64,000 nt of DNA from Pyropia yezoensis. Its lineage: Eukaryota > Rhodophyta > Bangiophyceae > Bangiales > Bangiaceae. The position numbers were made by a program, and so were the translations under genes. Under the pieces are notes generated by a model. The model saw only the letters and a program-made list of their open reading frames with translations, was not told the DNA's origin and ran no database searches. The stretch lies in contig CM020618.1 in assembly GCA_009829735.1 (NCBI GenBank), forward strand, positions 3,842,882 to 3,906,881, in the 5' to 3' direction. Below, one piece after another: positions 41,393 to 63,133 of this stretch; position 1 is the stretch's first letter; each line of letters opens with the position of its first letter.

Positions 41393-41755
41393 TGTAGCAA
41401 TATGGTTGGCCGTATTGTGACCCTAATGGTAGGGGGGCTACTTCTAATCCTTGACTTTCAATTTGATAGTCCGTACTGGTCACAGTATCTATAAGTTACG
41501 TATGACCAGAGGGACTTGCATCTTGGGGTGGGGGGTAGTTAGTAGTGTCTCCGAGAGTTTATAACGAGGGGGCCGGCGGCGAATCCACCGCCGGCCAAGG
41601 TAGAACAACAAACCCCTCCCATTTGGGCTCCCATCTTGGTCCCGTGGCTTGCGCTCCAAGGACAGCAACCTTGGCCTCCCGGTGACGTTGGTGCCGATCC
41701 CCCCTGGTGAGTGTTCCCCGAGAGTGGACGTGCAGCGGATACCTATTGTGCTACA
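41393..41755 (+). repeat. Element B 5' LTR (putative)
   Basis: The end, GTGCTACA, is fixed by the primer-binding site that follows. The start, TGTAGCAATA, is chosen because element A's LTR starts TGTAGCAT and because TG...CA ends are expected. No second copy is in the window, so the left boundary is not proven. Confidence 0.5.
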
Positions 41756-41756
41756 T

Positions 41757-41773
41757 TGGTGGAGCAGAAGGGG
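41757..41773 (+). other. Element B primer-binding site
   Basis: TGGTGGAGCAGAAGGGG directly after the LTR; element A has TGGTGGAGCAGCAGGGG in the same position. TGG pairs with a tRNA CCA end; the tRNA would have an acceptor beginning GGAGCAG. Primer identity not determined. Confidence 0.6.
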
Positions 41774-41964
41774 ACGGGTTTCCGTCACCCTTGTGGTGAC
41801 GCCGTCTTCGGCCCTGGCACACGGATAGGAATCCAGTCCTTTTCTTGTACTCGTGGTGCTGCGATCTTTTCGATTGTTTTGAGTGGCTGCGTATGACTGC
41901 AATCTACGGTTACTCTCCCCCAACTACCCCCTCGCTCTCTTATTCGTGGTGACTGTTACGTCGG

Positions 41965-44157: not shown

Positions 44158-47100
44158 GAGGAAGGACGACACGGGGTCGCTGGGGTAACCCTAGCAAGCC
44201 ATTCCGGACTGCCCCGGGGAAAGCTCCACGGAGAGCGCGGTTGAGCCGACGCCGCATCAACCCCCGGGTACACCTTCCGGCCCCGACGACACGGCGTCCG
44301 GGGATTGATGACCAACCACCAAGGTTGGGAGGAGAGGATGGGAAGCCCCGCCACATGGATCCAGACGAGGGCCCTGGCAAGGATGCCCGAGCTACACCGG
44401 ATATCGGTGTAGGCCACGTACTATTCACCTTGGAGAACTTCAAGGTATCAGCCACACTGGGGGTTGACCCCCAGTCGAACCGATCGTATTACCCTGTACT
44501 GGATACAGGGGCTGGACCTGACCTGATCCAGAAGGATACCCTCCCGGACAAGTGGCTCCCGCGAGTCAGAGTTGCTCGGGGACCCACGATCAAGGATTCG
44601 AATGGTGGTCTCATTCGTACGACGGCAGCGATGTCGCTGCAGGTCACCATCGGGGAGCTCACTACGGAAGTTGACTTCGTGGTGTGTGAGACTCAATCTG
44701 TGCCCTGCATACTGGGGTGCGCCTTCATCAACGTTCACGTTGATGCCATCCGGCCGGGCCGGAGGACCGTCGAGCTGCAAGAGGCCGACGGGACTAAGAG
44801 AGGACAGACAGCTATCGTCAGGGACCTGACATTACAAGGGAGCCACGTTAACGTGGCTGAGGTATACGCCAACGTAGAACCGAAGACACTCCGGCTGGCC
44901 AAGCGGACTCGCTTTGAGCCGCTATCGGAGACCGTCTTCCCGGTTAACTGTGACCTCGCAGGCATCTGCAGAGTCCAGTCCAACCTACGAACCTACAAGG
45001 GCCATGGGTTGACCGTGGCCAACGGTATCGTAGACCTCCCAGCGGGGGGGTCATCCCTGCTCGTGGTGGCGAACTATCGCCGTAAGGCAGTCACCCTACC
45101 GAAGGGAACTATCCTCGGGATTGCCGGGCTCTACGAAGGAGATATCCTTACCCCTGACAAGGAGGGTCAAGTGGAGCCACTTGAGGTACTGGCGGTCACC
45201 GAGACCACCGAACGGCAGCAACCCGATGACGGGAAGCCTAACCTATCGACAGCTCCAGCGGACATCCCGCCAAAGGACCAAGAAGCCTTGAAGGCACTGG
45301 CCGAGGCTGACCTCGACCACCTTCCCCCTTCGGTAGCTGAAGGGGTACTACGGATGCTAAGAAAGCATGACTTCATGTGGACCGGCGGGGCGCTGGGTAC
45401 CATTGGGGCAACCCAACACCGTATAGACCTGGTACCAGGTGCTCGACCAGCGCGGTCGCAACCGCATCGCGCGGGACCTATGCAACGAGAGATCGTTGAT
45501 GAAGAAGTGAAGAGGATGAGCGAAGCTAAGGTGATCCGACCTTCGATGTCGGAGTGGGGCGCCCCAGTCGTTATCGTACCGAAGAAGGATCAAACACCTC
45601 GGTTTTGCATCGATTATCGACGCCTCAACTTGGTTACCAAGAAAGACTCATACCCTTCACCAAGGATGGACGAGTGCATCGACTCGCTGGGGGAGGCCAC
45701 ACTGTTTACCACAATCGACTGCAATGCCGGTTACTGGCAGATCCCAGTTGCGGAAGAGGATATCCCCAAGACGGCGTTCGTCTGCCACAGTGGCGTGTGC
45801 GAGTTCCTAAGGATGCCCTTCGGATTGTCCAACGCCCCCGCCACATTCCAGCGGGCCATCGACATTATACTGTCGGGAGTCAAGTGGCGTAACTGCCTGG
45901 TGTACCTGGACGCCGTCATCGTCTTCTCGCGTAACATGGATGACCATGTGCAACATGTCGATGAGGTACTCACCCTCTTGCGGAACGCCGGGGTAACCCT
46001 GCGCCTCAAGAAGTGCGCCTTCTTCCAGCAGACAGTCGAGTATCTGGGTCACCAGATCACACCAGGTAAACTGGGAGTGCTCGAAGCCAATACCCGGGCA
46101 CTCCGGGATGCGCGATACCCAACCACCCAGACACAGCTGAAAAGCTTCCTGGGGTTGTGCAACGTATACCGACGGTTCGTCAAGGACTTCGCTCGTATAG
46201 CCAAACCGTTAACGGTTCTGACAAGCAGCGCCTTGCCAAAGGTACTTCAACCTCCCTGGCCCAGCGAGGGAGAGGCATTCGAGCTGCTCAAGCAAGCTCT
46301 GCTAGCCCCACCCGTGCTTGCGTTGCCGCATAGACGGGGGACCTTCGTCATCGACGTCGATGCCCGCGGCACCCAAGAGGGATGCACCCTGCTACAGGGA
46401 GAGACCATCATCGGTACCGATAATGCTATCCCGGACCTACATCTGGTAGGGTACTTCAGCCGGACACTCAACCCGGCTGAGCGTAACTATAGTGCCACCG
46501 AGCGCGAGTGCCTCGGAGTCATATGGGCAGTGCAACTGCTTCGGCCATACCTGGAAGGTTCCAGGTTCATCGTAAGGTCCGACCACGAACCTTTACGATA
46601 GCTTCTCAACCTTGGTGACAAGGATTCCGACAGCCACGGTCGGCTAGCCCGGTGGAGGCTGAAGATGGCCGAGCACGATTACCGGACCATATATAAGGCC
46701 GGGTCCACCCATCATCTGGGGGACGCGCTGTCGCGACTCGATACACCGAGCGGAAATACCCGACAGGTGGACGAGGACATCCCGGTGGTACCGGTGAGCA
46801 TGGTGGGTAATGCTACCCAAGGTATGGTTGACCATACCATGGCACACCTTGCGTGCCCATTGACCCTCGCCGATTTCCGTGAGGCACAGGCCAATGACGA
46901 TGACTGTAAACGCCATCGTGCTAACCTCCTGGCCGGCACGGCCGGCATCTTCTCCGAGAACGAGGACGGACTCATATACTGGCGGGCACCCGCCGACGGA
47001 CGGCATCAGGTCGTGGTTCCCGTGTCCTTACGGCAAGCCGTCATGGAACGAGAACACGAGAACCCCACAGCCGGACACCCGGGGGGTTCGCGCATGTTCG

Positions 47101-48327
47101 CAGCAATGCGAAGGTTCCTCTACTGGCCAGCTACGGCCGTCGACGTAATCGACCACGTGCGGGGATGCCACCCGTGTGCACAGAATCGTATGAGTCTTCA
47201 TAGGCGGGCATCCGCTATGAAACTGTTCCCCCCGGATGGGCCCAACGAGAAGTCGCTATCGACATACTCGGGCCGCTTCCGGTAACGGAAGAAGGGAACA
47301 GGTACATCCTGGTCATGTCGGACCGCTTTACTAAGCTGTCACGGGCAGTAGCAATCCCGAACGATACGGCCTACACGATCATGAACGCAGTGGTTGACCA
47401 CTGGATCAGTGCTTACGGAGTAATGAAGCAACTCCTCTCCGACAACGGAGCAAACCTTACGTCAGCATTCTGCACTAAGGTCCTGGGCATGTTCGGCATC
47501 GAACCCCGTCGGGCATCCGACTTCCACCCGCAATCCAACGGGCAGGTGGAGCGGTTCAAGCGCATCATCATGAAGATGCTCCAATGCTATATGGCGGAGC
47601 ACACGAAGACATGGGACAGGCTCCTGTCCGCCTTGACCCTGGCATACAATGCCAGGCCCCACCGGAGTACCAGCATTGCCCCACTGGAATGGGTCATGCC
47701 CATGGGCGTCGGGAACCTGACGCTACCACCGGGCAGATGCACTCGGTATGACATACCGAAGGGCCGACCGGCCGAACGGATCCACTTAGCTTGGTTGGCC
47801 AAGCTATCGTGGATGATACCCAAGCTCAAGGGTGCCCTTGACCGTACACAACTTCGATACAAGAAGAACTTCGACGCCCGACTACGGGTACGCAACGCAA
47901 CCCTGGTAACAGGTGACTGGGTCTATATCAGACACCAGAAGTTCCGAGGGAACAAGTTTATGCAACTGGTCAAGGGACCGTACCAAATCTTACACAGAGA
48001 TGATCACTCTGTCATCCTGCACTCCGATACGGAGATACAACGCATCAACCTCAATGATGTGACACCTGCTCCGAAGCCGGACAGCCTCAGCCGGTACCGG
48101 CTGGGTTGCTACATGAAGCTCTTACCCACCGGTCAGATGACCCGGTGGGACCGGATGGGATTCCATACCAAGTAGAGAGCGTGGTCGGACACACCGACCC
48201 GGACCTACCAGGACCCTGGTACGTCAAGGTAATGTGGGTCGGATACGACTCACCCACCTGGGAACAGGCGGCAAATATACCCCGTCAACTCCTCATGCCT
48301 TACACGAGGCGACAACGCCTACTGTAA
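44145..48327 (+). pseudogene. pol: Element B pol (protease-RT-RNase H-integrase-chromodomain), inactivated
   Basis: Protease motif VLDTGAGPDL (codons near 44502). The RT fingers/palm are recognisable (FCIDYRRLN, CNAGYWQIP, MPFGLSNAPATFQR), but the active site is YLDAVIVFS at 45903, lacking the second metal-binding Asp. The RNase H frame hits a TAG at 46599-46601 where element A has Trp. The same frame continues into the integrase zinc region (EHENPTAGHPG ... GCHPCAQNR). A one-base frameshift near 47250 precedes the integrase core, which keeps its D,D,E motifs (IDILGPLP, LSDNGA, NGQVERFK). A second frameshift near 48106-48160 precedes a chromodomain (WYVKVMWVGYDSPTWE). A dead copy. Confidence 0.88.
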
Positions 48328-48779: not shown

Positions 48780-51074
48780 TCAGTGGGTAGACCCACTGCC
48801 CGAGGGAGGCCACTCACGCGTAAGCGCGTACACCTCCATGCTCCACCGGTCGGCAATCCCACGACGGTCAATCACCCGAGTGACCTCGGTGCATAGCTGA
48901 ACGAGGGTGCTGCGGCCGGCCTCCACGTCCGCCAGAGCGGACTGGAGGCGGTCCAGCACGCCACCGAAGCAACGCGCGGACTCAACCAGCGCAGCTCCTG
49001 GGGAGATATCCCCCCAGCTAACAGAGAGACCCTCCCGCATCGCCCGGGCAACAAGGGCGTCAACGCCCTCATACCAGAGACGGGGACCCCCGTCATGCAT
49101 GACAGGGGCGGGAGGTGACACTAGCGCAGCCAGAGGAGCCACAGGAGCCGACACGGCTACCACCGGAGCCGGTGGCACCTTATACGAGGCCCGGTAGGAC
49201 CCTACCGAAGGGGCTCCACCGTAAACCCGGCGGGGCTCGGCCCGACGACGGGACACCTCACGCTCCCCACCCGCAGAGCCAAACTCTCGGGGACGACAGC
49301 CAACCGCCACCGGTATCGGGCTACCGAACCACGGGGCGAGGACCTGAAGAGGGTCATGGATAACCATGGGAATACCCAGGTCAGCAACAGCCTCGGTGGA
49401 CGCCCACCCATGGCAATTGGGCTCACCCGGCTGAGCACGCCGGATACGCAACGCGTGACGAGTCAAAGGGGAAGCCCCAGCCTGCGGGTCCCGGTACGGG
49501 GGAAGGGCCAACACCCCGGCCCAGTTCAAGGCATCGTGAACAGCCAGCAGGGCCTCGAACTCCCGGGCCAACCCGGTCTTCGCGGCTATCATGTCCACGC
49601 CCAACTGCTCGATGTGCCGACGGACACCCGTCGGAAGATGAAACAGGCGCCCCTGCCGGCGGACGGACAGCAGGAAGGAGGAAGCCTGCCCGAGGGTAAC
49701 CTCGAGGGTGAAGGTCCCCTGCAACGGGTGGACCGGCCGGGAGGCCAACACACTCCCGAGGTATCGGAGGCAGGAGCCGGTGTCAAACCGGAAAGCAGGG
49801 GCGGGTTCCCACTCCTCCTGCCACAGAGGCGGGCGCACGGCAGTGTACACCGGCGCACGACCGTTTCCGGTCTGCAACGCACATGTTATATCGGTGCGAA
49901 ACGCATCCGCCATGACACCATGGTTGCGTCGCCAGCTCGACACTGACTTCAACCCCGCCATAGGCGGGTACGGGGCCGTCAACGTCAAATACGGGGATAC
50001 CCCCGGGAAGTACTCGAACCCGGGATACCGGCCGGTATCACCCACCGTCTCCCCGAACACAACCGGCTCCGCCGCCGCCGCAATCCCCCGAGCACTAGCC
50101 GGGTAGTCAACCTCCCGCGGCAACGCGGGGGCAATCAAGTCGCATATCCCGAAGGCGGAGTCGAGGTAGACCTCACCCCGCCCCATCCGGGTGCGCCAGA
50201 GCTGCACATGCCGGTCGTCCGGCTGGCTCAGGATCCAATGATGTTCCACCCGGACCGCGTTCGGCTGGTTGACCAGCCGCACCAACTCCCGTTCCCAACT
50301 CGGGTCCACCTTGACGCGCCGAAAGGTCTCTCCAGGTAGACGCGGCTGGTGGAAGTCCACCCGCATCCGCCCAGCGGACTCCATCGACTCCTGCACAGTC
50401 ATGCCTCGAACCCGAGCCACCAAGTCGGACATCGACATGGCGGGTTGACCCGCAGCCAAGGCGACGCCGCCACCCAACGGGGCAACCCGGGCAGGACCAG
50501 GAAGAATAGGGGGCGCCGGGGGAAGCCCCACCGGCAGATGGGCCGCCACCGGCCGAGCACGGGGCCGAGGAGGGAGAAGAAGGGCGGGCGCCCGCCCGGA
50601 GTAACTCCCGGAGTCCACTGCCATCGGGGAAGATACTTCTTGACCACCCAGCGTCCGCGGCACCGCGGGCAGAGCATCGCCGCCACCCGGGCCCGACGTG
50701 GGCACCACGGGGGCAGCAGGGGTAGACCCGTTACCCGCCGCCGCGAACACACCAACCGGGCGGGCACCCGCGCCGTCTTGACCCGCCGACCCGGCCGGGG
50801 TGCCGCCACGACCTTCCGACACGCCGGCGACGCCGTCTTGAGGTAGAGACCCGCCGGCATCGGCGACAGAAGCCATCCGGACCGCCGGAGGAGTAAAGGT
50901 AGAGGCCACCTCTTCACGCGGTTGCCCGACACCCGACGGAGCCGTCGTGCCGCTGCACACGGACGACAATCCGCCCGGCGCACCTTCCGGAGCCACACGA
51001 ACGGTCACCCGGTCGCCCTCGTCCTCCGACGAGCTCGCCACGAAGCACTCGGCGGCGGTGGCAGAGACGGGAAC
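48780..51074 (-). CDS. Element B antisense accessory ORF, N-terminus truncated
   Basis: Long unbroken frame antisense to pol; first ATG at 50876 gives 698 residues, and the frame is open through to 51269 because it reads into the adjoining LTR of element C. The N-terminal third is Pro/Ala/Gly-rich. The conserved part (e.g. RAPVYTAVRPPLWQEEWEP, LGQASSFLLSVRRQGRLFHLP, GVRRHIEQL) aligns by eye with the antisense proteins of elements C and A. The final ~90 residues are helical. No known domain is recognised; it is not zinc-finger, protease or envelope-like as far as I can see. Confidence 0.7.
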   Translation of the reverse strand, partial: VPVSATAAECFVASSSEDEGDRVTVRVAPEGAPGGLSSVCSGTTAPSGVGQPREEVASTFTPPAVRMASVADAGGSLPQDGVAGVSEGRGGTPAGSAGQDGAGARPVGVFAAAGNGSTPAAPVVPTSGPGGGDALPAVPRTLGGQEVSSPMAVDSGSYSGRAPALLLPPRPRARPVAAHLPVGLPPAPPILPGPARVAPLGGGVALAAGQPAMSMSDLVARVRGMTVQESMESAGRMRVDFHQPRLPGETFRRVKVDPSWERELVRLVNQPNAVRVEHHWILSQPDDRHVQLWRTRMGRGEVYLDSAFGICDLIAPALPREVDYPASARGIAAAAEPVVFGETVGDTGRYPGFEYFPGVSPYLTLTAPYPPMAGLKSVSSWRRNHGVMADAFRTDITCALQTGNGRAPVYTAVRPPLWQEEWEPAPAFRFDTGSCLRYLGSVLASRPVHPLQGTFTLEVTLGQASSFLLSVRRQGRLFHLPTGVRRHIEQLGVDMIAAKTGLAREFEALLAVHDALNWAGVLALPPYRDPQAGASPLTRHALRIRRAQPGEPNCHGWASTEAVADLGIPMVIHDPLQVLAPWFGSPIPVAVGCRPREFGSAGGEREVSRRRAEPRRVYGGAPSVGSYRASYKVPPAPVVAVSAPVAPLAALVSPPAPVMHDGGPRLWYEGVDALVARAMREGLSVSWGDISPGAALVESARCFGGVLDRLQSALADVEAGRSTLVQLCTEVTRVIDRRGIADRWSMEVYALTREWPPSGSGSTH

Positions 51075-51543
51075 TGTGGCAAAAACCACTTGCACACACG
51101 ACACCCAAGTTGGGGCGGTGTACAAGGGCTGCCTCCCGTGTCGGGGGAACCGGAAGAAGTGCAAGTCGCACACACTCTGTCCCTGTTGTGGGGCAAACCC
51201 CCCACTGACAAACAAGAGGATGGTGTGTGGTCCAACAGTTTCTTGGTCGGGACGGGGACGCAGGGCCAAGCCCCGCTGTCCCTCCCCTTATCCACCCAGG
51301 GTCCCCTCAGAATCTCGCCACTCAGAATCTCCCACCCCAGCACCTGCCCACCGGGCCACACGAAAATTCAAGACGATAAATGCAGAAAACCCTCAAATCC
51401 AAGTTGGATTTACTACTAAGCTAACTATCCCAAACTTAGGGAATACGGACCCAAATGCAGGGGGAGGAACGGATCAGGCTAGTGGCCTGCCGCCCCTTGC
51501 ATGGCACGTGTTGCCCCCCTACCTGGGGGTCAATACTGCTACG
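51075..51543 (-). repeat. Element C 3' LTR (putative)
   Basis: On the minus strand a pure purine tract GAGGAGAGGAGAG (51556-51544) precedes CGTAGCAGTATTGACC, comparable to TGTAGC at the LTR start in A and B, and the segment ends TTTTTGCCACA at 51075, comparable to TATACCACA in A. It shares GGTAGGGGGGC and TTAGTAGT motifs with LTR B. No second copy is in the window; the first base would be C instead of T. Confidence 0.4.
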
Positions 51544-51881
51544 CTCTCCTCTCCTCAGTTCCGACCGACCCGGTCGGCCCTGTGAGGGGGTGCGTAAAGG
51601 CACGTCTCGGCGTTGGGGGCGCGACTTCCTGTCCCCCCTTGAGTACGTAACGCGGATGTGGAGGCGGCCACGTTGACCGCCCCTCTCCTCGAGCTTGCCC
51701 ACTCGGCAGCTTGATCTCCCCGGTTCACACATCACCTTCACCACCACCTCCCCTTCACCTTCCACTGGGCCGCCCCACGCTGGGGAGGCCACCCGTCTAC
51801 CCACGATCCGAGCCCCCCTCAACTCGAGGCGGGTCTCGTGCCGCTGTAGCCAGGGCGTCTCTCCCCAACCTGGGGAGAGCC

Positions 51882-53484
51882 ATGGCGACCCCGGGAGTGG
51901 AGACGGACTCTCTCGACGAGCGTATGGAGGACACCTCCGACGGTGCAGCGCCCGCCGGGACTTCCGGCGGGGGCTCCGCCATCGCTTCGGGGGATGGGAC
52001 TCCCGCGTCACCCGGCTTTGGGTTGACGGCGGGATCTCCCCCGGAGGCGGGGCAAGTTGTCCCGCGTGAGGCCTTGGGGCGGTGGTTTTACCCCGCTTGG
52101 CCTCTTTATGAGGAGGGGTTGACTGTTCTTCGCTGTGGCCGACTTGGCGCAGCGATTGGTCGGGTATGGGACCGCCTACGGGAGAAGTATCCCCGTAGGG
52201 TCGGATTCCCTGCCGGCTTCAGGATGGACCAGTTTGCCTTCCTGGACGACGAGGAGGTCGAAGACGTACAGCGTGCCAAGGCCATGGTGGACCGCGGGGG
52301 AACTATCCCGGGTCCCGGAGACTTGCCGACCTTTACGTGGGACGCTGTGGCAGCTCGCCCCCCGTACCTTCACGAGGCCGATCCGTACACTCATCACTTT
52401 GATGTGCGGATGGAGAAGGACTTCCGGCGAGGTCCCTACTTGGTGACCTCGGCTCAACTTGAGTTTCCTCAGCAGTCTGCTGCCAGTAAGGAGCAATACT
52501 ACCCGAAGAAGCCCGAGTGGTGGCCTCAAGTTGAGGTCCCCTACGGGTTCCCGGCGTTGCTGCCACGGTTGCTTGACCACTTCGGCTCCGTCATGTTGAC
52601 GGCCGGCCCTGATCACCTGGTGTGGGCCATATTGGCCACCCAGTGGCTCCTCGGGGTCATGTCGACCTGGGTGTCTTGTGTTCAGCGGCGGGGGATGATC
52701 TGGCATCTCCCCCTCCGGCTTATCCAAGGCTTGGAACAGCTCACCCCTCAGCTAGTTGCTGAGGGGTGCTCATCAGGACAACTCACTCTGCTTGAGGAGA
52801 TGCTCCGCCTCCACAAGTTTATCGAGTGGGAGAGCATTGAGCACAAGTTGCGCCGCCCCCCTCGTGGGCCCAAGGACGATGGCGCACTTCGCCAGTTCGT
52901 GTGGGTCGCTCGTGATTTTCACGACGGCCGTGTGGTCCTACGAGAGGGGTTGGGCATCGGGGACTACCCGTATGCCCCGGGAGTGGATCGCCACACTGCG
53001 CCACCCCCGGACAAGGCCATAGTTATGGCCGTGCCCTGATATGATGACCATATGACTCAACCCACTGCGAGGGCCCCAAGTCGGGGTCGCAGTTACACCC
53101 GGGTCCCGCCACCTCGGCGTGCTACTCCGCTTCCTCCTGTCCCCTACCAGCCGCACGGGGACATCCCGATTAACGTGGCCGTTGAGTCGTCCACCCCGGT
53201 GTCCCCCAACTTGGGGGCCACCCTCCTGACGGTATACCCCAAGTTGGTGTTACCGCCCCCGCCTCTAACCTCAGAGATGATGATCACCACGTTGGTGCGC
53301 ACCATTTTCTGGTTGGCCGCGTCGACCGCAACCCTTCAAAGTTCCGAGACTCCTCAACTTGAGGAGCGCGTTCGTACTGCAGTGGCGACCGCGAGTTGCG
53401 AGTCGGTGGCGGAGTTTATGACGGCCGAGTTGGCTCGCATTGGGGCTATTATGCCCCAGCCAGCCCCACTTGGGCGTGGCAAAC
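51882..53484 (+). pseudogene. Element C antisense accessory ORF, broken
   Basis: Starts at ATG 51882 and reads 385 codons to an in-frame TGA at 53037-53039; the same frame then continues open (about 150 codons) until it is cut by the LTR of element A at 53485. Conserved blocks shared with A include PPYL, a Phe/Tyr-Leu-Val-Thr/Ser segment, and YYPKKPEWWPQVEVPYGF versus YYP...EVEIPVGF. Blocks shared with B include LGVMSTWVSCVQRRG and HLP...LEQL. It is antisense to element C, whose pol lies on the minus strand. Function unknown. Confidence 0.65.
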
Positions 53485-54055
53485 TGTAGCATCCCTGGCC
53501 CCGACTTGGCGCCGACCCGGGACTGCAACCAGAGGGCACCAGGTGCCAGAACACGCCCGCCGTGTGGTGATGGTTGGCGGCCGTGGCCCGTGCCCGGCAC
53601 TGGGATGCGGTGGACTACGCTATCCACACGTGAGAGAGGGATTGCTGATGGGTTTTTGCATACTTGTGAGGGACTTGATTTGAGAGAATTCGAGTGTGAG
53701 ATTAGTGAGTGGGAATAGAATTAGTAGTGATAGTGGCCCCCGACCTGACGAGGTTAGACTCGGGTCGGGGCCACTCGGGGTTATGGGGGGGCTACCTGGC
53801 CAACGTGCCGAGGCTCCCCCAGATGCACGTTAAGAGGGACAGCGAGGCGCCCTTGGCCCGCGCCCTCAGGAAAAAGACAACTGCGCGTTTGCTTTCGTCT
53901 TCCCCGTGTGCACTACCGTGCGTATCTGTTTGCTCTGCGAGCAGGCACGTGAGGCAACAGGCATACCATTCTCGTAGTTCCCCTTTCTGTGTTACCTGTC
54001 CCTTTCCCCCGAGGGATATTGACACGTGTCTGAGAGGATCGAGTTTTATACCACA
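53485..54055 (+). repeat. Element A 5' LTR
   Basis: 571 bp, TGTAGCATCC ... TATACCACA. It differs from the 3' LTR at five sites; at three of these (ACTGCAACC, AATTCGAG, GAGGTTAG) the 3' LTR agrees with the solo LTR at 26.9 kb, so the changes probably arose in this copy. A GGCCCC-CGACCTGA...TCGGGTCGGGGCC palindrome lies near 53733-53772. Confidence 0.95.
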
Positions 54056-54059
54056 TATT

Positions 54060-54077
54060 TGGTGGAGCAGCAGGGGA
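54060..54077 (+). other. Element A primer-binding site
   Basis: TGGTGGAGCAGCAGGGGA, four bases after the LTR end and matching element B's site except for one base within the first 17. Presumably pairs with the 3' end of a host tRNA not identified here. Confidence 0.6.
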
Positions 54078-54266
54078 TCATTGGAGTGTTTGAGAAGAGA
54101 CATTTGGGAGCAGCGGTTGGGTTGTTCCTGTTCTGTCTTTTTCTGTGGTTTGGGAATTATTTGCACCCGTTCACGGGAATCCCATTCCTGGCTCTCCAAC
54201 CCCTTTCTTGTGGTCTTGCGATTTTTGGACACGCAGGTGACTGGACGTGGCTGTCAACAGACCAAC

Positions 54267-55934
54267 ATGGCTACCCTCCCTGGCACGACGGTGCCCGAAG
54301 GGGTAGACCCCGCGTCCCTTGACGCATCCCTGGTCACCGCGGGGGACGGTGCCCAACCCGGCGTTCTCCCTACGGGTGAAGCAGACCTGGGTGTGACATC
54401 CGGTAGCGGACTGGAGTCCACAGGCGGCCAAGCACCACCTGCTCCCGTTCCTCCGGCTGTTCCTTCTGTGGGAGCCACCCCGGGGTCAACGGCGTTTGAG
54501 TCCGCTCGCAGCAGACGTCTCCCTCCTGTCGGTTCTACTCCTCAACCTCCAGGGATAGCCCCTGGTGTGTGTACTCCTGGACCCACACATGGCAGCTGGG
54601 TGTATACACCTCTTCCTGTGGGCACTAGCGATGCCAGAGGCACCGTTGTGACTGGTTCTACGGGTCTCCCTGAGACCTCGACTCCTGGGACCGGCCAAGC
54701 TTTTCCTCCCCTTGCATCCTATGGGGCGGGGAGCTCCAAGACCGGTAACCGGAGCAGCCGAAGGCGTCGGCGTCATCGCCGTCGCTCTAGCACCAGCGAG
54801 ACCAGTTCCTCCAGCTCTGAGGGGGGATATGATTGGGATGTATCTCCCGGTCCCACCCGGCGCAGGCTAGTCGAGTTTGACTTCCCTGCCCACCAAGTGG
54901 GAGATGCCACCCTGAACAAGGTCACGTATTGGGGTAACTACCGGCTGGAGAACCAAGACCAAGGTTACACCCGGAAGATGGCCAAGAAGATGGCGTCCCT
55001 GAACCGGCGAATGCAGCCGAGCTTCGGGGGACATCCTAAGTTTTCCGGGAAGAGACCGGCGCTTATCTTTGCCTTCCTGCGCCGGTTTGTCAAGGCATGC
55101 AATGACAACGATGTGTCCGAGGGCAAGGCTCTCTACCTCCTGGTTAACTTCATGACCGGAGAAGCGGAACAGCGGTTTGCACAGGTTCTACCAGACTCTG
55201 CCGGACACATTGTCGGACGTACCGTCGCGAGTTATCCGGAGGCGGTCAACTGGCTCCTGTCCAACTACGCTGACGCGGACTCTCTGCGTAAAGCAGTCGG
55301 CAGGCTGAACCGGGCAACCATGGAAAGACAAGAGACTCCAGAGGCGTTCGCCCGTCGTGTCCGGGAGATGAGCGATGCTTGTGGCAACGTTTACCCTGAG
55401 GACAGGCTCAAAATGATCTTCTCGGAAGGGCTTCCTGAATATCTTCAAGTGGATGCGGAGAACTACAACCAGGAACATCAAGAACATACCTTCCAGCAGT
55501 TGATGGCCTACACCCAGGGCAAGTACCGGCAAGCCAGGGCCCTCCAAGCTCCCATGGTATCAACTCCCAAGCCGTTGTCGCGAGTTCGACCCGGACCCGA
55601 CAAGTATAAGGGAGGTGATAGCCCTGTACCGGTACTCGCAGTTGGCGAGGCCTCACCCATGGGGTCAGGGGACAAGTGGGGCGGCTTCATTTCTAAGGAG
55701 CAACCATCCCTGGTCGCCCCCAAGAAAGTCAAGAACCAGCGGTTCCGGTCTTGTTGGCTGTGCCAGAAGGAGGATCACATGTCCTACCAGTGCCCGACCA
55801 TTCCCAAGGACCTCCAGGAGAAACTCAAGCGTCAAGGACTGGTGTTTGCAAAGGCGGTCAACTTGGCTGACCGGCGGGCACCCTCCAAGATGGACCAGGC
55901 ACAGGTACATGCAATCCGAGTGGCAACCTTATAG
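54267..55934 (+). CDS. gag: Element A gag, shortened by a premature stop
   Basis: 555 codons from ATG 54267. A Ser/Pro/Thr-rich N-terminus with an Arg/Ser tract (about residues 160-185) precedes a retrotransposon gag capsid region (about 230-430: FLRRFVKACND, EAEQRFAQVL, YPEDRLKMIFSEGLPEYL), and a CCHC knuckle CWLCQKEDHMSYQC (C-x2-C-x4-H-x4-C) lies near the end. The TAG at 55932-55934 is premature: the same frame runs on 30 codons to ...SDPGNE-TAG at 56027, matching the STGNE end of gag B and containing the frameshift heptamer. Gag-Pol would therefore need read-through of this TAG, or this copy is defective. Confidence 0.8.
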   Translation: MATLPGTTVPEGVDPASLDASLVTAGDGAQPGVLPTGEADLGVTSGSGLESTGGQAPPAPVPPAVPSVGATPGSTAFESARSRRLPPVGSTPQPPGIAPGVCTPGPTHGSWVYTPLPVGTSDARGTVVTGSTGLPETSTPGTGQAFPPLASYGAGSSKTGNRSSRRRRRHRRRSSTSETSSSSSEGGYDWDVSPGPTRRRLVEFDFPAHQVGDATLNKVTYWGNYRLENQDQGYTRKMAKKMASLNRRMQPSFGGHPKFSGKRPALIFAFLRRFVKACNDNDVSEGKALYLLVNFMTGEAEQRFAQVLPDSAGHIVGRTVASYPEAVNWLLSNYADADSLRKAVGRLNRATMERQETPEAFARRVREMSDACGNVYPEDRLKMIFSEGLPEYLQVDAENYNQEHQEHTFQQLMAYTQGKYRQARALQAPMVSTPKPLSRVRPGPDKYKGGDSPVPVLAVGEASPMGSGDKWGGFISKEQPSLVAPKKVKNQRFRSCWLCQKEDHMSYQCPTIPKDLQEKLKRQGLVFAKAVNLADRRAPSKMDQAQVHAIRVATL

Positions 55935-56014
55935 AGCATCACGGAGGCTCTGGCAAGGGAAGCTCCTACGGACTTTGACCTGGAGACCGAAACCTCTAAG
56001 GACTCCTCGGACCC

Positions 56015-56021
56015 GGGAAAC
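56015..56021 (+). promoter_or_regulatory. Candidate -1 ribosomal frameshift site, element A
   Basis: GGGAAAC in register G-GGA-AAC of the extended gag frame, followed by GAG TAG. The surrounding CGGGAAACGAGTA is identical to element B. The -1 frame is open from here into protease. No strong stem was seen within 10 nt; a TTCTCCC/GGGAGAA hairpin lies at 56086-56109, rather far downstream. Confidence 0.65.
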
Positions 56022-59000
56022 GAGTAGGGCAGGCGCTCTCCCCAAGTGTCTTCCCGAATCTCCGACGGCAGGGTACTTCTACCCGTTCTCCCCTTGCGCA
56101 CCGGGAGAAAGGACGGCAGTTACCCGCTCAACCGGTAGCCGCCTGGACACCCTGTTTGTTCAAGGGGACATTGCTCGTCCTGCGTAAAGAAAACCTCAAG
56201 ATTAATGCTCGTATGCGTGTGGGGGATAGCCTCCCCCAAGCTGTTACGCCGGTGGTTGACACGGGAGCCGGACCAAGCGTCATCACTGAGAACCTATTAC
56301 CTCCGGGCTGGCGTCGACATGCCTGGAGAGCGCCTACCCGGACCCATATCGTCGACGCTTCGGGTCAAACCCTACGACCGCTTGGCCGTCTTCCTGTCGC
56401 CATCTATGTCAACAATGAACCAATGCTTTTTCCCTTTCTAGTAGTCAAGACCCTATCAGTCCCCCTCATCCTAGGCTGGGACTTCCAGAAGCAGCATGTC
56501 AAGAGCATCCTACCCGGAGAAGGGAAGGTCCAGTTCAACCATGGGTTTGTGTCACCGGTATTGGAGCATCTGGACGCCAAGGTTCGTGTAGCCAAGAGCA
56601 AGAGGGAACGCATCCCACCCTCTACCTTGACTCTCTTCAAACCGGTGCTCCTACCTCCTCGCTCGGAGACCAAGGTTCAAGTAACGATTCGGATTGCAGG
56701 TCAATGCCTGATCTACGGACGTAAGGAATTTCTGGCGAAATACCGGTTATACTTGGCCCACGGACATCACAAGAAGGTAGAAGGGCACACCCCGTTCTCG
56801 GTGCTAATCGTCAACGTGAGCCGGAAGCCAATAACCCTCGCCAAGGGCACCCGAGGTGGTACAGCAGAGCCTTACCGGGGATCCGCCCGTGCTATGAGCA
56901 AGGAAGACCTCCTGAACCTGCAAAAAGAACTGGCATCCAACTTGACGGCCTTAGACGTACCTCCGATACAAGAGCAGGCTGGCAGCGCTACTCCGAAACC
57001 CGAACAAGCACCACCCGGGATGCCGAAGGTCAAGCAAGAAAATGTCCCTCCCGACTTGAAGGAGGCACTGGAGAAGCTTCTCCAGGAATATCGGCACCTG
57101 TGGTCGGGAGAGCTGGGCAAGATGGACGCCACTCTACACCGGATTCAACTCAAGCCGGAAGCTAAGCCAGTGCACATGCAACCATATCGGGCCGGACCTC
57201 ATCGCCGGGATGAGATTGAGAAGCAGGTTAACAAGATGCTCAAGATGGATGTTATCGAGCCGTCTGATGGCGAGTGGGCTTTCCCGGTGGTAGTCGTCCC
57301 GAAAACCGGCGGTCACCTCCGTTTCTGCGTTGACTACCGGCGCCTGAACGAGATTACAGTCAAGGACGTATACCCGATACCCCGGATGGATGATTGCCTC
57401 GACTTTCTTGGTGATGCCACCCTCTTCTCGACGCTGGATTGTAATGCCGGTTACTGGCAGATCCCTCTGGCTGACGAGGACAAGGACAAGACCACCTTCA
57501 CGTGCCACCTGGGACTATTCCGGTGCAAGCGTCTTCCTTTTGGTCTCACCAATGCTCCGGCCACCTTCCAAAGAGCCATCGACATCATCCTGTCCGGGCT
57601 AAGGTGGAGAACATGTTTGGTCTACCTGGACGACATTATCGTTTTCTCCAAGACCCCAGCGGAACACCTGGAGCACCTTCGGGAGGTCCTGGCCCTCCTG
57701 TCCAAGGCTGGAGTTACCCTCAAGGCCGAGAAGTGCCACCTGTTTGAGACTGAGGTGGAGTATCTGGGGCATGTGCTGAGTCCGGGGGAGCTCCGAGTCA
57801 ATGAGAAGAACATCAAGGCCCTCCGGCATGCACGGCAACCTAAAACCCAGACGGAACTCAAGAGCTTCCTGGGTATGTGCAACGTCTACCGCCGGTTCGT
57901 ACGGGACTATGCTCTGATTGCCCGGCCATTGACCAAGCTCACCAGCAAGAAGCTTCCCGCACAACTCCCGGTGTTCGACGAGAAGCAGACCGCGGCCTTC
58001 GAAGAGCTCAAGAAGCGCTTGACCACCACTCCAGTACTGGCGTTACCCAAGCGGGAGGGCCAGCTTGTTCTGGAGACTGATGCCTGTGGCGTCCAGGTGG
58101 GGTGCTCACTACTCCAGCAGCAACCTGATGGGCACTTCCTCCCGATAGGCTACTACAGTCGCGTCTTGACTCCAGCCGAGAAGGACTATTCCACGACGGA
58201 GCGCGAGTGCTTGGCAGTCGTCTGGGCTTGCTTCCTGTTACGGCCATATCTTGAAGGACAAGAGTTCCTCATCCGGACGGATCACGCCAGTCTAAGGTGG
58301 CTGCTATGCATGGACAGCAGTCAAGGAAGGGTCGCCCGGTGGCGCCTACGCCTTTCGGAGTTCAAGTACAAGGTGTGCACCAGCGCAGGGAGGGAGCACC
58401 ACTGCGCCGACACCATGTCCCGGCTGGAGACTCCTGCAGCCGATACCGGTCCTGTCCCGGAGGAAATACCTTGCTTCATCCTCCCGAATGTCGGACGTGG
58501 CTGGCACGCTCCCCTGTATGAGACACCTGAAGCTCATCAACCGGTGACCATTCACTGGATGCTGGAGGCACAACTGACGGACCCTCAATGCTTGGAGCTT
58601 CGCCACCAAATGGACCTGAACCGGAACAGTCGTTTCTCCGAGTCTACGGACGGACTCCTAGTACGGGTGTCACCCCTCGATGGGGCCACTCAAGTCTACG
58701 TATCCCGGGGCCTACGAGCTGACATCCTACGCCTGGAGCACTCGTCTCCCCAGGCCGGACATCCTGGTATCAATCGGATGTATGCTTCCATGAGACGACA
58801 CTATTACTGGGAAACCATGGCCAGTGACGTCCATAAGTACCTGGAGGCTTGTGTTTCTTGTGCAAGGAACCGGTTGTCCCAGAGGAAGAAGACTTCTAAG
58901 CTACGCCTATTCCCTGCGGCGGAGCCCTTTGCAAGCTTAAGCATGGACATCCTGGGGCCCCTACCTGAAACATCCAGTGGCAACATATACCTGCTCATCA

Positions 59001-60115
59001 TTTGTGACCGGTTCTCCAAGTTCACTCGAGCAATCCCGCTGAGGACCATCACGGCTCTGGATGTCACGTCAGCCTTCTGCGAGTACTGGATAGCTGCCTA
59101 CGGCCCTCCAGACTCCGTCTTAACCGACAACGGTCCCCAGTTTGCATCCCTGTTCTTCCAAGGAGTCTGTGACCTGATGAGCATCAAGAACTTGTACACG
59201 ACGACGTACCACCCTCAAACGAACGGCCAGGTGGAACGATTCAACCGGACCCTAGTAGACATGCTACGACACTACGTGGAGAAGCACCAAGAAGACTGGG
59301 ACGAGCTCCTGGCTGTCCTCACTCTAGCCTACAACTCCCGAGTTCACCGGACAACGGGGGTCGCTCCACTCGACTTTGTCACCCCAAGGCGGCTGACCAA
59401 CTTCTCCCTGGAAAGAATACCAGACGGTCTCCAGCCTGCACTGAAGTCAGGTCCCAAGGCAAAGGATGAGTTCCTGGAACAACTGAAGCTCCTGCTCCCA
59501 AGAGTCAAGGAGTCAATCTCGAAGACCCAGGAGCGATACAAGCGGGGCTATGACAAGGGCGTTCGGGAAAAGAACAAGGAACTGGGTGGTGGCGACTGGG
59601 TTTTTGTGGACAACCATAGCAAGACCCGGGGGAAGCTGGACTCGAAGACGGATGGACCTTATGAGATCCTGAATACGGACGGTTGGACCTTTCTTCTAGA
59701 CGTGGATGGCTCCCCGTACCGCGTGAGCAGCGACCATGTCACCCGAGCTCCACCGCCAAGCCAACGGGACTTGACCCGGCGCAAGCGGGCCGCAGTACCC
59801 TGGCTATCCCAAGAAGAAGGTCGGGAATATGTCTACGTCAAGTTTGTGGACCATGCCTGGAGAGACGGACGCCTGTACCTGCGAGTACGCTGGTTCGGTT
59901 TTAACCCGGCAGATGATACCTGGGAACCCTCAAACCGGCTACCCATCGCGGATGTCTGTGCCTACACGCGACGGAACGGGATAGAGGGCACTCCAGTGGC
60001 CAGAGCCGGCAAGATTCTGGAGTCGGACTCGGAGGAGGACCAAGAGGATGGGGCCAACCAAGACCCTCGGGACGAGCCGAGTTCATCCGCAACGGATGCG
60101 GAACAAGAGGATTGA
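56015..60115 (+). CDS. pol: Element A pol polyprotein: protease, RT, RNase H, integrase, chromodomain
   Basis: Open from the frameshift site to the stop, about 1364 codons, no breaks. Numbering here counts from the TTG at 56156. Protease DTGAG at 35-39. RT with FCVDYRRLN, CNAGYWQIP, LPFGLTNAPATFQR and intact YLDD at 490-493. RNase H with ETDACG (Asp 642), TERECLAV and the DHASLRW region. Integrase zinc region H-x-H/C-x2-C (AGHPG ... CVSCARNR) and core Asp 931 (MDILGP), Asp 991 (TDNGPQ), Glu 1027 (QVERFN), the D,D35E spacing. A chromodomain at about 1222-1272 (YLRVRWFGFNPADDTWEP) probably targets integration to chromatin marks. An acidic tail ends the protein. Translation presumably depends on the -1 frameshift. 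Confidence 0.95.
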   Translation, partial: GKRVGQALSPSVFPNLRRQGTSTRSPLAHREKGRQLPAQPVAAWTPCLFKGTLLVLRKENLKINARMRVGDSLPQAVTPVVDTGAGPSVITENLLPPGWRRHAWRAPTRTHIVDASGQTLRPLGRLPVAIYVNNEPMLFPFLVVKTLSVPLILGWDFQKQHVKSILPGEGKVQFNHGFVSPVLEHLDAKVRVAKSKRERIPPSTLTLFKPVLLPPRSETKVQVTIRIAGQCLIYGRKEFLAKYRLYLAHGHHKKVEGHTPFSVLIVNVSRKPITLAKGTRGGTAEPYRGSARAMSKEDLLNLQKELASNLTALDVPPIQEQAGSATPKPEQAPPGMPKVKQENVPPDLKEALEKLLQEYRHLWSGELGKMDATLHRIQLKPEAKPVHMQPYRAGPHRRDEIEKQVNKMLKMDVIEPSDGEWAFPVVVVPKTGGHLRFCVDYRRLNEITVKDVYPIPRMDDCLDFLGDATLFSTLDCNAGYWQIPLADEDKDKTTFTCHLGLFRCKRLPFGLTNAPATFQRAIDIILSGLRWRTCLVYLDDIIVFSKTPAEHLEHLREVLALLSKAGVTLKAEKCHLFETEVEYLGHVLSPGELRVNEKNIKALRHARQPKTQTELKSFLGMCNVYRRFVRDYALIARPLTKLTSKKLPAQLPVFDEKQTAAFEELKKRLTTTPVLALPKREGQLVLETDACGVQVGCSLLQQQPDGHFLPIGYYSRVLTPAEKDYSTTERECLAVVWACFLLRPYLEGQEFLIRTDHASLRWLLCMDSSQGRVARWRLRLSEFKYKVCTSAGREHHCADTMSRLETPAADTGPVPEEIPCFILPNVGRGWHAPLYETPEAHQPVTIHWMLEAQLTDPQCLELRHQMDLNRNSRFSESTDGLLVRVSPLDGATQVYVSRGLRADILRLEHSSPQAGHPGINRMYASMRRHYYWETMASDVHKYLEACVSCARNRLSQRKKTSKLRLFPAAEPFASLSMDILGPLPETSSGNIYLLIICDRFSKFTRAIPLRTITALDVTSAFCEYWIAAYGPPDSVLTDNGPQFASLFFQGVCDLMSIKNLYTTTYHPQTNGQVERFNRTLVDMLRHYVEKHQEDWDELLAVLTLAYNSRVHRTTGVAPLDFVTPRRLTNFSLERIPDGLQPALKSGPKAKDEFLEQLKLLLPRVKESISKTQERYKRGYDKGVREKNKELGGGDWVFVDNHSKTRGKLDSKTDGPYEILNTDGWTFLLDVDGSPYRVSSDHVTRAPPPSQRDLTRRKRAAVPWLSQEEGREYVYVKFVDHAWRDGRLYLRVRWFGFNPADDTWEPSNRLPIADVCAYTRRNGIEGTPVARAGKILESDSEEDQEDGANQDPRDEPSSSATDAEQED

Positions 60116-60539
60116 GAAGAAGGGAACGGGTATATCAAGGAGAACACGCAATACAAGCATGGAACAATCAAGGAAAACAAGCACCCGCTCGGGCAACCCT
60201 TCTCTCCGCCTCTTCCCTCCTCGCTTCTCCCAAGACCTTCACCCTCCTTGCCTCCAACTACTACTCCCGGCGCGGACGCTGAGCCGCGGGAGTGTCCTCC
60301 AGCGCTGCCTCCGCGGCACGACGGGAACCGGAGGAAGACGGGATGACGTAGTGCGGTGGACGCGGTGCATCCCGGTATGACGCCATCGGAGTAGTACCGG
60401 TAGTTGCCGGGGGCTCCCGCTCATCCAGATATGCCCGTCGGCGCCCCTGGAAGCCAGTGAAGGTTTCTGACCACTGCTGGGCCAAGCCATGCCGCGTCAA
60501 GGTCGCCAGAAGTTCGCCAACCACCGGGCTGTTCGACAT
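60116..60539. other. Element A spacer between pol and antisense ORF
   Basis: Noncoding junction between two ORFs that meet tail to tail, ~425 bp, comparable to the ~450-bp spacer in element B. No repeat or signal recognised with confidence. Confidence 0.5.
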
Positions 60540-62378
60540 CTAGCCGCTGTCCGCGCAAGCAAACACCCGGTCGACCACGTTGTTCAAGACGCTGGCGTAA
60601 GTACCCAGCACCAGGGAGGACCCAACGCCTTCGACCTGCACCGGAAGACGACCCAGCTGGTCTTCAATCATACCGACGTCGTACTGGTCGCATGTCGGAC
60701 CACCTTGGATCAGGTACCAGTCAGGCACCCGGAAGCGGGTAAGGCGCAGAGTCGGCGCCGGAATCTCGAACCGCCCCGAGGATGACACCACCGGACGGTC
60801 CACAACGGCCCCCGAAACCGGAGTTCCCAACTCCAGCGGAGGCACAGCGCCGCCGGCGTTGGAAGAAGGCGTCCGAGGCGGAGCGGCCGGAGTGGTAGGC
60901 GACCGCACGGTCACCCCCAGACTCGCCGCAGACAGGCGCGGTGCCGGAGGAGCTTGAAGTACCGGCACAGCCGGAACAGGGCGTGAACGCGCCGGTGACG
61001 GTTCAGGGGAGGCCACCGGGGCGACAGGTGCAACAGGAGGAAGCGGAGCCGCCGCAGACGCCCGACCGACCGCCGCGGCCCATCCCGACTCCTGCACCGA
61101 CGGCCCAACTGGCAGAAGATCAAGGGCGGCCGGGGCAGGAAAGCTACCTAGCTGCGGCCACGCCGGAAGCGGCGTCGCCAGCTGCACTTTGGCCGGAGAA
61201 GACTGGTAGACCACCTGCGCCCAACCGAAGCCATCCCGACGCGGGCGGTTCTGGTCGGCAATCGCGTTCAAGAAGTTCCGGTCATGCACCGGCACTAGAC
61301 GCCGGAAGTCAATCATCGCCCGGAAGAGCCCCTTGTACTCTTCGTCCTGGCTGCACAGGAAGTCGACGGTCAACTTGTCGACAATCCAGACCATCAGGAG
61401 GTCAGGGAGAAGCCAAAGCCGGTTGGACACCAAGACCTCGTGAAGCCAGTGGTTGGCCGCCAAGACTGTCATCTCGGACGTGTACATCATGTACGGGATC
61501 GAGTGGAAGAAGCCCTTGATCGACGCCTGAGTCAAGGCGTCCAAGAAGTACCAGGTGAAAGGGATGCTGGAAGAAGCAAACCCGACCGGGATCTCGACTT
61601 CCTGCTGCTGCGGGATGACCATGGGGTAGTACGCCGCCCGGTTGGCCTTATCCAGCTTCCAGAACTCCTGATGGTTGCAGCTCACGAGGAAGTCACGCTG
61701 ACGGCCGCGTCGCTCGCCTTGCTCCCGTGCCGGTGACAGCTTGGAGTACTTCCGGGTCAGGAAAGGCGGCTCCAGAGCGACCATGCTCGGACGGGGGTCG
61801 CAGTTCAGGCTCCCCGACCCCTTGAGCGCCTCGTCCCAGACCTTGAGCGCCCGGTGGACGTACCCTTCCTCCTCCGGCCACCGGAGAACGGACGCGGACA
61901 CGCGACGCTCGGTCAAGGGCAGATCCAGCACCAGCGCGAAGGGGAGATCCTCCAGACGAGCAACCCAAGAGGAACCCGAGAAGCTCTGGGAGCGGTCTTG
62001 TGCCAGGCGCATCTGGTCCGCCGTGTGAAGACGAGCCTTATCCATCTCTGTCAAGACCCCGCGCTGGAGTTCCTTGCGCCAGAGGTCCAAGCAATCCTGC
62101 TGGCACTGGGCCGCGCCGGCGTTGCCGACCACCGTGGAGTAACGCCGAGCCGCCAGAGGGTCCTGCCCAAGAAGCATCTCCGGGAGACCCACCGGGGGGG
62201 TCTCGACCGGGTGCATCACAGAAGCCGGGGGAACCCGATCCGTCCCCGCCGTGGCGACCGGCGCCGACATCGACACCCGAGGAACCGGATGCAGGAGAGG
62301 GGCGCGACTACCCGAGTTCTCCTCCGCAACACTCGCCGCCGGAACCACGGGCCCAGCTTGGATCTCGGAACTGGACAT
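60540..62378 (-). CDS. Element A antisense accessory ORF
   Basis: Intact frame antisense to gag-pol. The ATG at 62378 (MSSSEIQAG) gives 612 residues; the frame is open further upstream to 62570 at the LTR edge. N-terminal Pro/Val/Ala-rich region, a conserved central part (about residues 190-400) and a Pro-rich C-terminal region ending in a short helical segment. Shared blocks with element C are a Phe-Leu-Val-Ser segment, YYPMVIPQQQEVEIPVGF, a hydrophobic WxxxxLVSNRLWLLPDLL-like stretch, and RRDGFGWAQVV. No known enzyme, zinc finger, membrane or envelope signature is seen. It is likely transcribed from an antisense promoter in or near the 3' LTR, which I infer from position only. Confidence 0.75.
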   Translation of the reverse strand: MSSSEIQAGPVVPAASVAEENSGSRAPLLHPVPRVSMSAPVATAGTDRVPPASVMHPVETPPVGLPEMLLGQDPLAARRYSTVVGNAGAAQCQQDCLDLWRKELQRGVLTEMDKARLHTADQMRLAQDRSQSFSGSSWVARLEDLPFALVLDLPLTERRVSASVLRWPEEEGYVHRALKVWDEALKGSGSLNCDPRPSMVALEPPFLTRKYSKLSPAREQGERRGRQRDFLVSCNHQEFWKLDKANRAAYYPMVIPQQQEVEIPVGFASSSIPFTWYFLDALTQASIKGFFHSIPYMMYTSEMTVLAANHWLHEVLVSNRLWLLPDLLMVWIVDKLTVDFLCSQDEEYKGLFRAMIDFRRLVPVHDRNFLNAIADQNRPRRDGFGWAQVVYQSSPAKVQLATPLPAWPQLGSFPAPAALDLLPVGPSVQESGWAAAVGRASAAAPLPPVAPVAPVASPEPSPARSRPVPAVPVLQAPPAPRLSAASLGVTVRSPTTPAAPPRTPSSNAGGAVPPLELGTPVSGAVVDRPVVSSSGRFEIPAPTLRLTRFRVPDWYLIQGGPTCDQYDVGMIEDQLGRLPVQVEGVGSSLVLGTYASVLNNVVDRVFACADSG

Positions 62379-62562: not shown

Positions 62563-63133
62563 TGTAGCATCCCTGGCCCCGACTTGGCGCCGACCCGGGA
62601 CTACAACCAGAGGGCACCAGGTGCCAGAACACGCCCGCCGTGTGGTGATGGTTGGCGGCCGTGGCCCGTGCCCGGCACTGGGATGCGGTGGACTACGCTA
62701 TCCACACGTGAGAGAGGGATTGCTAATGGGTTTTTGCATACTTGTGAGGGACTTGATTTGAGAGAATTTGAGTGTGAGATTAGTGAGTGGGAATAGAATT
62801 AGTAGTGATAGTGGCCCCCGACCTGACGAGGTAAGACTCGGGTCGGGGCCACTCGGGGTTATGGGGGGGCTACCTGGCCAACGTGCCGAGGCTCCCCCAG
62901 ATGCACGTTAAGAGGGACAGCGAGGCGCCCTTGGCCCGCGCCCTCAGGAAAAAGACAACTGCGCGTTTGCTTTCGTCTTCCCCGTGTGCACTACCGTGCG
63001 TATCTGTTTGCTCTGCGAGCAGGCACGTGAGGCAACAGGCATACCATTCTCGTAGTTCCCCTTTCTGTGTTACCTGTCCCTTTCCCCCGAGGGATATTGA
63101 CACGTGTCTGCGAGGATCGAGTTTTATACCACA
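62563..63133 (+). repeat. Element A 3' LTR
   Basis: 571 bp, TGTAGCATCC ... TATACCACA, preceded by the purine tract GGGAGGGAG and CTA. Five substitutions from the 5' LTR. Directly followed by element C integrase sequence on the minus strand. Confidence 0.95.

Follow-up and report, generated by a model that had tools for sequence, protein, structure and literature searches.

Do the long reading frames that run opposite to the pol end of some retrotransposons encode proteins of their own, and if so, what might these proteins do for the element? This question is raised by a stretch of 64,000 nucleotides from the red alga Pyropia yezoensis (assembly GCA_009829735.1, contig CM020618.1, positions 3,842,882 to 3,906,881 of the forward strand), hereafter referred to as the window, in which three Ty3/gypsy elements lie nested, A within C and C within B. 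Each of the three carries a large open reading frame (ORF) opposite to gag-pol, in the region that separates pol from the 3' long terminal repeat (LTR). From our analysis, we conclude that this antisense ORF is a protein-coding accessory gene of a red-algal Ty3/gypsy lineage.

Position and extent of the antisense genes

The initial annotation of the window had proposed three large antisense ORFs located between the pol end and the 3' LTR. All of them are present, and their location is borne out by the coordinates of A, B and C, but two of the proposed boundaries required correction: the range 51882-53484 assigned to C is not a single ORF, as an in-frame stop codon at 53037-53039 breaks the frame, and the B gene is cut off at its start. 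The antisense genes in the window are the following:

48780..51074, minus strand: antisense ORF of element B, 764 codons, start removed by the insertion of C
51882..53039, plus strand: antisense ORF of element C, 385 codons up to the in-frame stop
53040..53484, plus strand: remainder of the C antisense gene past the stop, ending at the insertion of element A
60540..62378, minus strand: antisense ORF of element A, 612 codons from its ATG

Position 51074 is the final base of B and the C LTR begins at 51075; hence, the start of the B gene is missing from the window. In the B copy L002, the gene starts at an ATG further upstream. The C copy L024 has an antisense frame that is open for 724 codons from stop to stop, a length common in other C copies, and for 647 codons when counted from its ATG. 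The window copy of A is open for 686 codons, and 761-846 codons are common in other A copies. Pol of element A ends at 60115, with the antisense ORF at 60540-62378 and the LTR from 62563 onward; in C (coordinates of L024), the pol stop codon at 598-600 is followed by the antisense ORF at 712-2655 and the LTR from 3000; in B, pol is open to 48175, the antisense ORF is found from 48780, and the LTR lies at 4430 in L002. The antisense start codon is positioned inward of the 3' LTR by 184 bp in A, 344 bp in C (L024) and 562 bp in B (L002). RNA folding around the antisense start of C was unremarkable (z=-1.75).

These genes are present in many copies. Matches in the P. yezoensis genome numbered at least 59 for the B, 107 for the C and 128 for the A antisense gene, with those of the window counted. 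No stop codon interrupts the matched stretch in 33 of the 59 B copies (764 amino acids), 106 of the 107 C copies (385 amino acids) and 120 of the 128 A copies (308 amino acids), in lists that are ordered by best match first and are consequently biased toward intact copies. Seven of the 20 C copies that we fetched, L024 itself counted, share 99.4% identity or more with L024.

One protein family in three element families and two species

The antisense proteins form one homologous family that is present in all three element families and in two Pyropia species. BLASTP aligned the B and C proteins with an E-value of 2e-10 (24% identity over 237 amino acids) and the A and C proteins with an E-value of 2e-5 (22% over 138 amino acids), whereas A and B matched each other only in Pro/Ala-rich stretches; these two are related only through C. 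When the three proteins, with low-complexity parts masked, were compared by tblastn with the six frames of the window and of three other loci, matches at E<1e-3 fell exclusively within the antisense ORF of another element (2.6e-8 for B to C, 5.6e-6 for C to B and 4e-4 for C to A), with A to C reaching only 0.02. Comparisons with hhalign were in weak agreement (B-C, E=7e-4, probability 26%; C-A, E=3e-4, probability 40%; B-A not significant). Homology of the antisense regions at the DNA level was rejected, as blastn between the elements returned matches of 13-28 bp only. Two claims of the initial annotation are thereby substantiated: the blocks of residues that it had seen by eye to be shared between B and C and between C and A lie in proteins that align significantly, and the proteins resemble each other despite the divergence of the element DNA.

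A profile made from the three sequences retrieved six hypothetical proteins of Pyropia vietnamensis (MMPV_ models; P0009-P0014) with E-values from 3e-86 to 7e-30, the longest match being 46% identical to the B antisense protein over 559 amino acids. Judged from their sequences, these six proteins are probably misannotated element genes. Used as single queries, the A and C proteins each found one near-identical protein and nothing else. As these hypothetical proteins are the only named relatives and no annotated family was matched, the family is as unfamiliar as it had appeared at first sight. Scans of IMG/VR revealed no relative of the antisense family and none of the element A pol. At E<=1, tblastn matched none of L049-L051, which are single copies from three groups of reverse transcriptase (RT) sequences that differ in open-frame length; this is a weak negative, as these stretches were cut without the pol end being known and two of them include parts of other elements.

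Purifying selection on the antisense protein

The antisense gene is kept by purifying selection on its protein. The ratio of non-synonymous to synonymous substitutions (dN/dS) is well under 1 in all three families (B, 0.346; C, 0.115; A core, 0.109). For B, the value of 0.346 (95% bootstrap interval 0.29-0.41) was obtained from 21 sequences, namely the window copy and 20 fetched copies of at least 59, 17 of which lack an internal stop, a sample that is more intact than the list from which it was taken; the 18 sequences free of internal stops gave 0.349. Pol of the same set of B elements has a dN/dS of 0.144 (RT, 16 sequences) and 0.160 (integrase, 18 sequences). The synonymous diversity of the B antisense ORF (0.10) is about half that of pol (0.19), and the gap between the two genes has a diversity similar to that of the antisense ORF (0.09-0.13). 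Residues 41-180 of the B protein are under loose constraint (0.55-0.89). In C, the whole protein has a dN/dS of 0.109, residues 61-340 have one of 0.03 and the tail has one of 0.27, as calculated from 18 of the 20 fetched loci (the best 20 of 107; 17 distinct), with the window copy and one cut copy excluded; bootstrapping with 15 distinct copies of exact length gave 0.115 (0.08-0.16) for the protein and 0.031 (0.014-0.056) for its core. The 308-residue core of A, assessed with the window copy and six picked copies of at least 128, yielded 0.109 (0.05-0.20).

Variable columns concentrate at third codon positions of the antisense frame (p=7e-9 for B, 4e-24 for C and 2e-4 for A). The non-coding control, the gap between pol and the antisense gene of B, gave ratios of 0.61-1.08 over its six frames and had no codon-position bias (p=0.54). 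Within the antisense-gene stretch, the remaining frames have ratios above 1, except the opposite-strand frame with mirrored third positions (0.43 in B, 0.18 in C and 0.17 in A). The sense frames of this stretch are stopped 4-21 times per copy in B, 10-25 times in C and 2-7 times in the A core. Since every sense frame holds stops, a gene on the sense strand cannot account for the open antisense frames, a possibility that the initial annotation had named as a threat to its own proposal. Its two other refuting outcomes, a lack of significant alignments and a neutral dN/dS, did not occur either, the one comparison short of significance being that of A directly with B. The combination of a low dN/dS with interrupted sense frames means that the antisense protein itself is the object of selection, and from this clear preservation of the gene it follows that the elements probably need the protein.

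Anatomy of the protein

By eye, the antisense protein begins with a Pro/Ala-rich N-terminal part, to which a conserved central core around the motifs H-L-P and E-Q-L is joined; a Pro-rich linker then leads to the C-terminal part, which in the C protein finishes with an Arg/Ser-rich basic tail. The core is predicted to be mostly helical, albeit with low confidence. Divergence between the families exceeds that of pol, with identities of 22-24% where the antisense proteins can be aligned versus 39-53% for pol. None of the three proteins matched TRP28 (PF04195) at E<=10 or any of the Pfam pol domains; the sole Pfam row at E<=10 was DUF5568 (E=1.2), which we take as noise. An origin of the antisense protein from Gag was rejected, as the best match to the Gag of A or B was no better than E=0.3.

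Candidate target motifs in element C

The C copy L024 (3474 bp) contains ten CAA[CG]TTG motifs, with 0.41 expected and a maximum of three in 200 first-order simulations. In 4.3 kb of C sequence, 12 were counted versus 1.5 expected under a second-order model (Bonferroni-corrected value 1.2e-5 for 192 palindromes), the motif having been spotted by eye ahead of counting. Nine of the 11 cores present in the window fall into one stretch, and the other two are at 63182 and 63966:

51106..53361: stretch of element C with nine of the 11 CAA[CG]TTG cores of the window

Around five of the ten motifs in L024, the symmetry extends to perfect dyads of 13-21 bp, whose arms differ; the longest dyad is located 2 bp upstream of the antisense ATG, a site that is degenerate in the window copy. 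Seven of the ten L024 dyads fall into the antisense gene, and the ten motif positions are occupied in 18-20 of the 20 C copies. We regard the CAA[CG]TTG dyads as candidate binding sites in C, and as a lead only.

Palindromes of other kinds were also noted. Element B (41391-51073) contains ten perfect even palindromes of at least 14 bp with differing cores and no common core, where about 0.5-1 are expected, and 6-10 palindromes of at least this length are present in each of eight further B copies (L030-L033, L035, L036, L044 and L045, of 20). Element A has one (0.9 expected), and the first 20 kb of the window have nine (2.4 expected), mostly GC-rich simple repeats.

Possible functions of the antisense protein

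The explanation that we favor, and to which we give an even chance, is that the accessory gene under selection encodes a nuclear, nucleic-acid-binding regulator of its own element family. We favor it because of the analogy to GENE23 of the maize element Grande and because the protein is divergent between families yet constrained within them; divergence between families that is faster than that of pol fits a regulatory accessory protein. The basic tail of the C protein, the C dyads and the lack of any resemblance to Gag are further points in its favor. Possible roles named in the initial annotation were silencing suppression, a capsid partner and RNA export. An antisense transcript initiated within or close to the 3' LTR would serve as the mRNA for the protein. 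The protein might then enter the nucleus, bind nucleic acids and act mainly on its own element family, possibly by raising the expression of this family or by opposing its silencing, so that element lineages losing the antisense gene would leave fewer copies. In C, the CAA[CG]TTG dyads would be the targets, and the dyad next to the antisense start codon might allow autoregulation. Self-recognizing anti-silencing or autoregulation of the VANC type, in which the antisense protein of each family binds its own scattered dyads and which would have evolved independently in red-algal LTR retrotransposons, strikes us as unlikely; proteins and targets diverging together would explain both the large difference between families and the near-frozen state within one (0.03 in the C core).

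Several observations weigh against the conclusions drawn so far. The antisense proteins matched nothing in Pfam, PHROGs or, by sequence, the PDB, and the AlphaFold models were unusable, with mean predicted local distance difference test (pLDDT) scores of 34.0 and 32.6. No basic cluster was found in the A and B proteins of the window. The C dyads are nearly as variable between copies as their surroundings (11% versus 14% of columns), no palindromic core passes correction in A or B, leaving C as the only one among the three elements, and the remaining 41 kb of the window contain two GC-rich cores that do pass (Bonferroni-corrected values 0.01 and 0.04). In the non-coding LTR of B, the ratio ranged from 0.49 to 1.48 according to the frame; the method is consequently noisy on short stretches, and the 0.35 of the antisense gene is below all of these values. 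The best tblastx matches between B and C (4.9e-5) and between A and C (0.002) pair antisense with antisense frames, but the same program joined fragments of the B and A 3' regions in mixed sense frames with an E-value of 2.7e-5. Hence, tblastx values of such size prove nothing, and we rely on BLASTP and tblastn.

The main rival to a regulator is a partner in replication or assembly that would cooperate with Gag or the integration complex rather than influence gene expression, be it as a capsid cofactor, an RNA chaperone or a factor for packaging or nuclear import. Selection on the C and A proteins is about as strong as that on B pol, as is expected of a replication component, and the predicted core helices align in B and C, although with very low confidence and in alignments that share members. 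We nevertheless consider such a structural role fairly unlikely, given the lack of similarity to the Gag of A or B and the usual synthesis of virion proteins from sense transcripts. The protein could alternatively restrict its own element and limit its copy number, in the manner of the restriction protein p22 of Ty1. Selection for self-limitation can retain a protein, and the antisense RNA itself might dampen gag-pol, as is discussed in excerpts of PMC7264820. The many copies per family and the near-identity of seven of the 20 fetched C copies to L024 point to recent expansion rather than restraint, and make self-restriction improbable.

An Env-like protein for cell-to-cell spread is a highly improbable explanation. 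Judged by hydropathy score alone, the best 19-residue windows of the three proteins reach 1.23-1.65; that of A (1.59) comes near the usual Kyte-Doolittle limit of about 1.6, but the 1.65 of B falls into its Pro/Ala linker. ORFs between pol and the 3' LTR of plant elements are sometimes Env-like, but those known are in sense orientation (PMC7264820, in excerpts), whereas the ORF is antisense in all three of our elements. Finally, there might be no protein at all, and the frames might be long by chance in GC-rich DNA, or might mirror a sense gene or a regulatory RNA. GC-rich DNA does yield many long ORFs, and the window contains 63 frames of at least 200 amino acids. Such an explanation is scarcely credible in view of dN/dS values of 0.1-0.35 with 95% intervals that exclude 1, the codon-position bias in the antisense frame, the interrupted sense frames, and protein homology with next to no similarity of the DNA. 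A chance ORF and constraint from the opposite strand were therefore rejected, and the absence of a protein is already refuted unless the alignments or the sampling of copies are badly biased.

Architecture of the nested elements

LTR elements are foremost among the predicted repeats that make up 48% of the P. yezoensis genome (PMC7423979, in excerpts). In the window, the copies of B and C are interrupted by the nested insertions, B by C and C by A. The following parts of the three elements accompany the antisense genes:

53485..54055, plus strand: 5' LTR of element A, 571 bp, 99.1% identical to 62563-63133
62563..63133, plus strand: 3' LTR of element A, 571 bp
53709..60115, plus strand: gag and pol of element A, with RT, RNase H and integrase
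41393..41755, plus strand: 5' LTR of element B, matching the 3' LTR of other B copies
41953..48175, plus strand: gag-pol of element B, spread over several frames in the window copy
51075..51540, minus strand: element C 3' LTR, whose insertion disrupts the 5' end of the B antisense gene; inner end approximate; about 468 bp in L024
63134..64000, minus strand: part of element C pol (integrase), running on beyond the window

Pfam domains in A pol are in the order RVP, RVT_1, RT_RNaseH, Integrase_H2C2 and rve, which is that of Ty3/gypsy elements. The matches to a zinc knuckle, the protease (RVP) and a chromodomain in the gag-pol of A are all below their own cut-offs; the Chromo match at the end of A pol has an E-value of 7.6e-4 and 19.8 bits, under a cut-off of 25.1 bits, and a putative chromodomain in C was seen by eye only. 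The host elements are probably chromoviruses.

The junctions of A in C (53470-53484 and 63134-63148) lack a target-site duplication, and some 0.8 kb of C sequence found in L024 is absent there, as judged by eye; A was either inserted with a deletion, or two A copies recombined. A further LTR of element A at 26929-27499 lacks neighbors of its own and is flanked on both sides by the direct repeat TGTAC, as befits a solo LTR. Directly 3' of the 5' LTRs of A and B, similar stretches (TGGTGGAGCAG...) are present at 54056-54075 and about 41756-41775, respectively; from their sequence, they look like candidate primer binding sites for a tRNA ending in CCA. Two inverted repeats of 450-460 bp with 85% identity (21398-21856 and 35035-35484), of which a weaker third copy lies at 22920-23375, may represent LTRs or solo LTRs that belong to a different element.

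Relation to known systems

The function of antisense accessory genes, a decades-old question, becomes directly testable in a sequenced seaweed, since numerous copies are open, selection was measured alongside that on pol within one element family, and one family offers a candidate target motif. Our data also suggest that some hypothetical proteins of the Bangiales, such as the MMPV_ models, are retrotransposon genes.

Parallels come from plants, as the initial annotation had pointed out, and, with the element Boty, from Botrytis. Under the name aORF-3R, antisense ORFs between pol and the 3' LTR have been described for Boty and for plant elements, among them maize Grande (GENE23), rice RIRE2, Silene Retand and PvRetro13, with their function given as unknown in excerpts of PMC7264820 and PMC11963269. 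Knowledge of antisense ORFs in LTR retrotransposons goes back decades, PMC7264820 citing a Grande paper from 1997, and GENE23 is portrayed in excerpts of the same source as a nuclear antisense protein with its own promoter. The red-algal genes are likewise large, antisense to gag-pol and situated between pol and the 3' LTR. They differ from the plant-hosted cases in residing in red-algal elements with a chromodomain-like end and in having had their selection measured. Retand belongs to a non-chromovirus lineage with TRP28 (PF04195), a domain not matched by the red-algal proteins. GENE23, RIRE2 and PvRetro13 are likened to the red-algal family by description.

The Chlamydomonas element REM1 has a reverse-frame product, which we take to be the one named ORF3p. 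REM1 resembles A, B and C in that it is a Ty3/gypsy element of an alga and has reverse-frame coding sequence, but its reversed part is described as a truncated integrase that keeps GPY/F and the chromodomain (PMC2774666, in excerpts), whereas the integrase is on the sense strand here and the antisense protein matches no pol domain; the two were set apart by description. The VANDALs of Arabidopsis, in which the anti-silencing protein VANC is encoded, are DNA transposons. VANC recognizes short motifs that are repeated in its own family (PMC10398659, in excerpts), and the C dyads are a possible parallel. The VANDAL motifs are tandem repeats in non-coding regions, whereas seven of the ten L024 dyads are in the antisense gene, and among the red-algal elements only C has a shared core; this likeness again is one of description. 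HBZ and APH-2 of the human T-cell leukemia viruses (HTLV) are also antisense-encoded proteins of a retroelement, with an antisense promoter in the HTLV 3' LTR (excerpts of PMC11963269 and PMC7264820); they are compared by description and stem from a mammalian retrovirus. Among the literature matches listed, all of them open-licence papers, no title or opening of an abstract described the red-algal antisense family. Collectively, the antisense location is known from plants, while the red-algal protein family that occupies it, devoid of a TRP28 match, appears from its sequence to be new.

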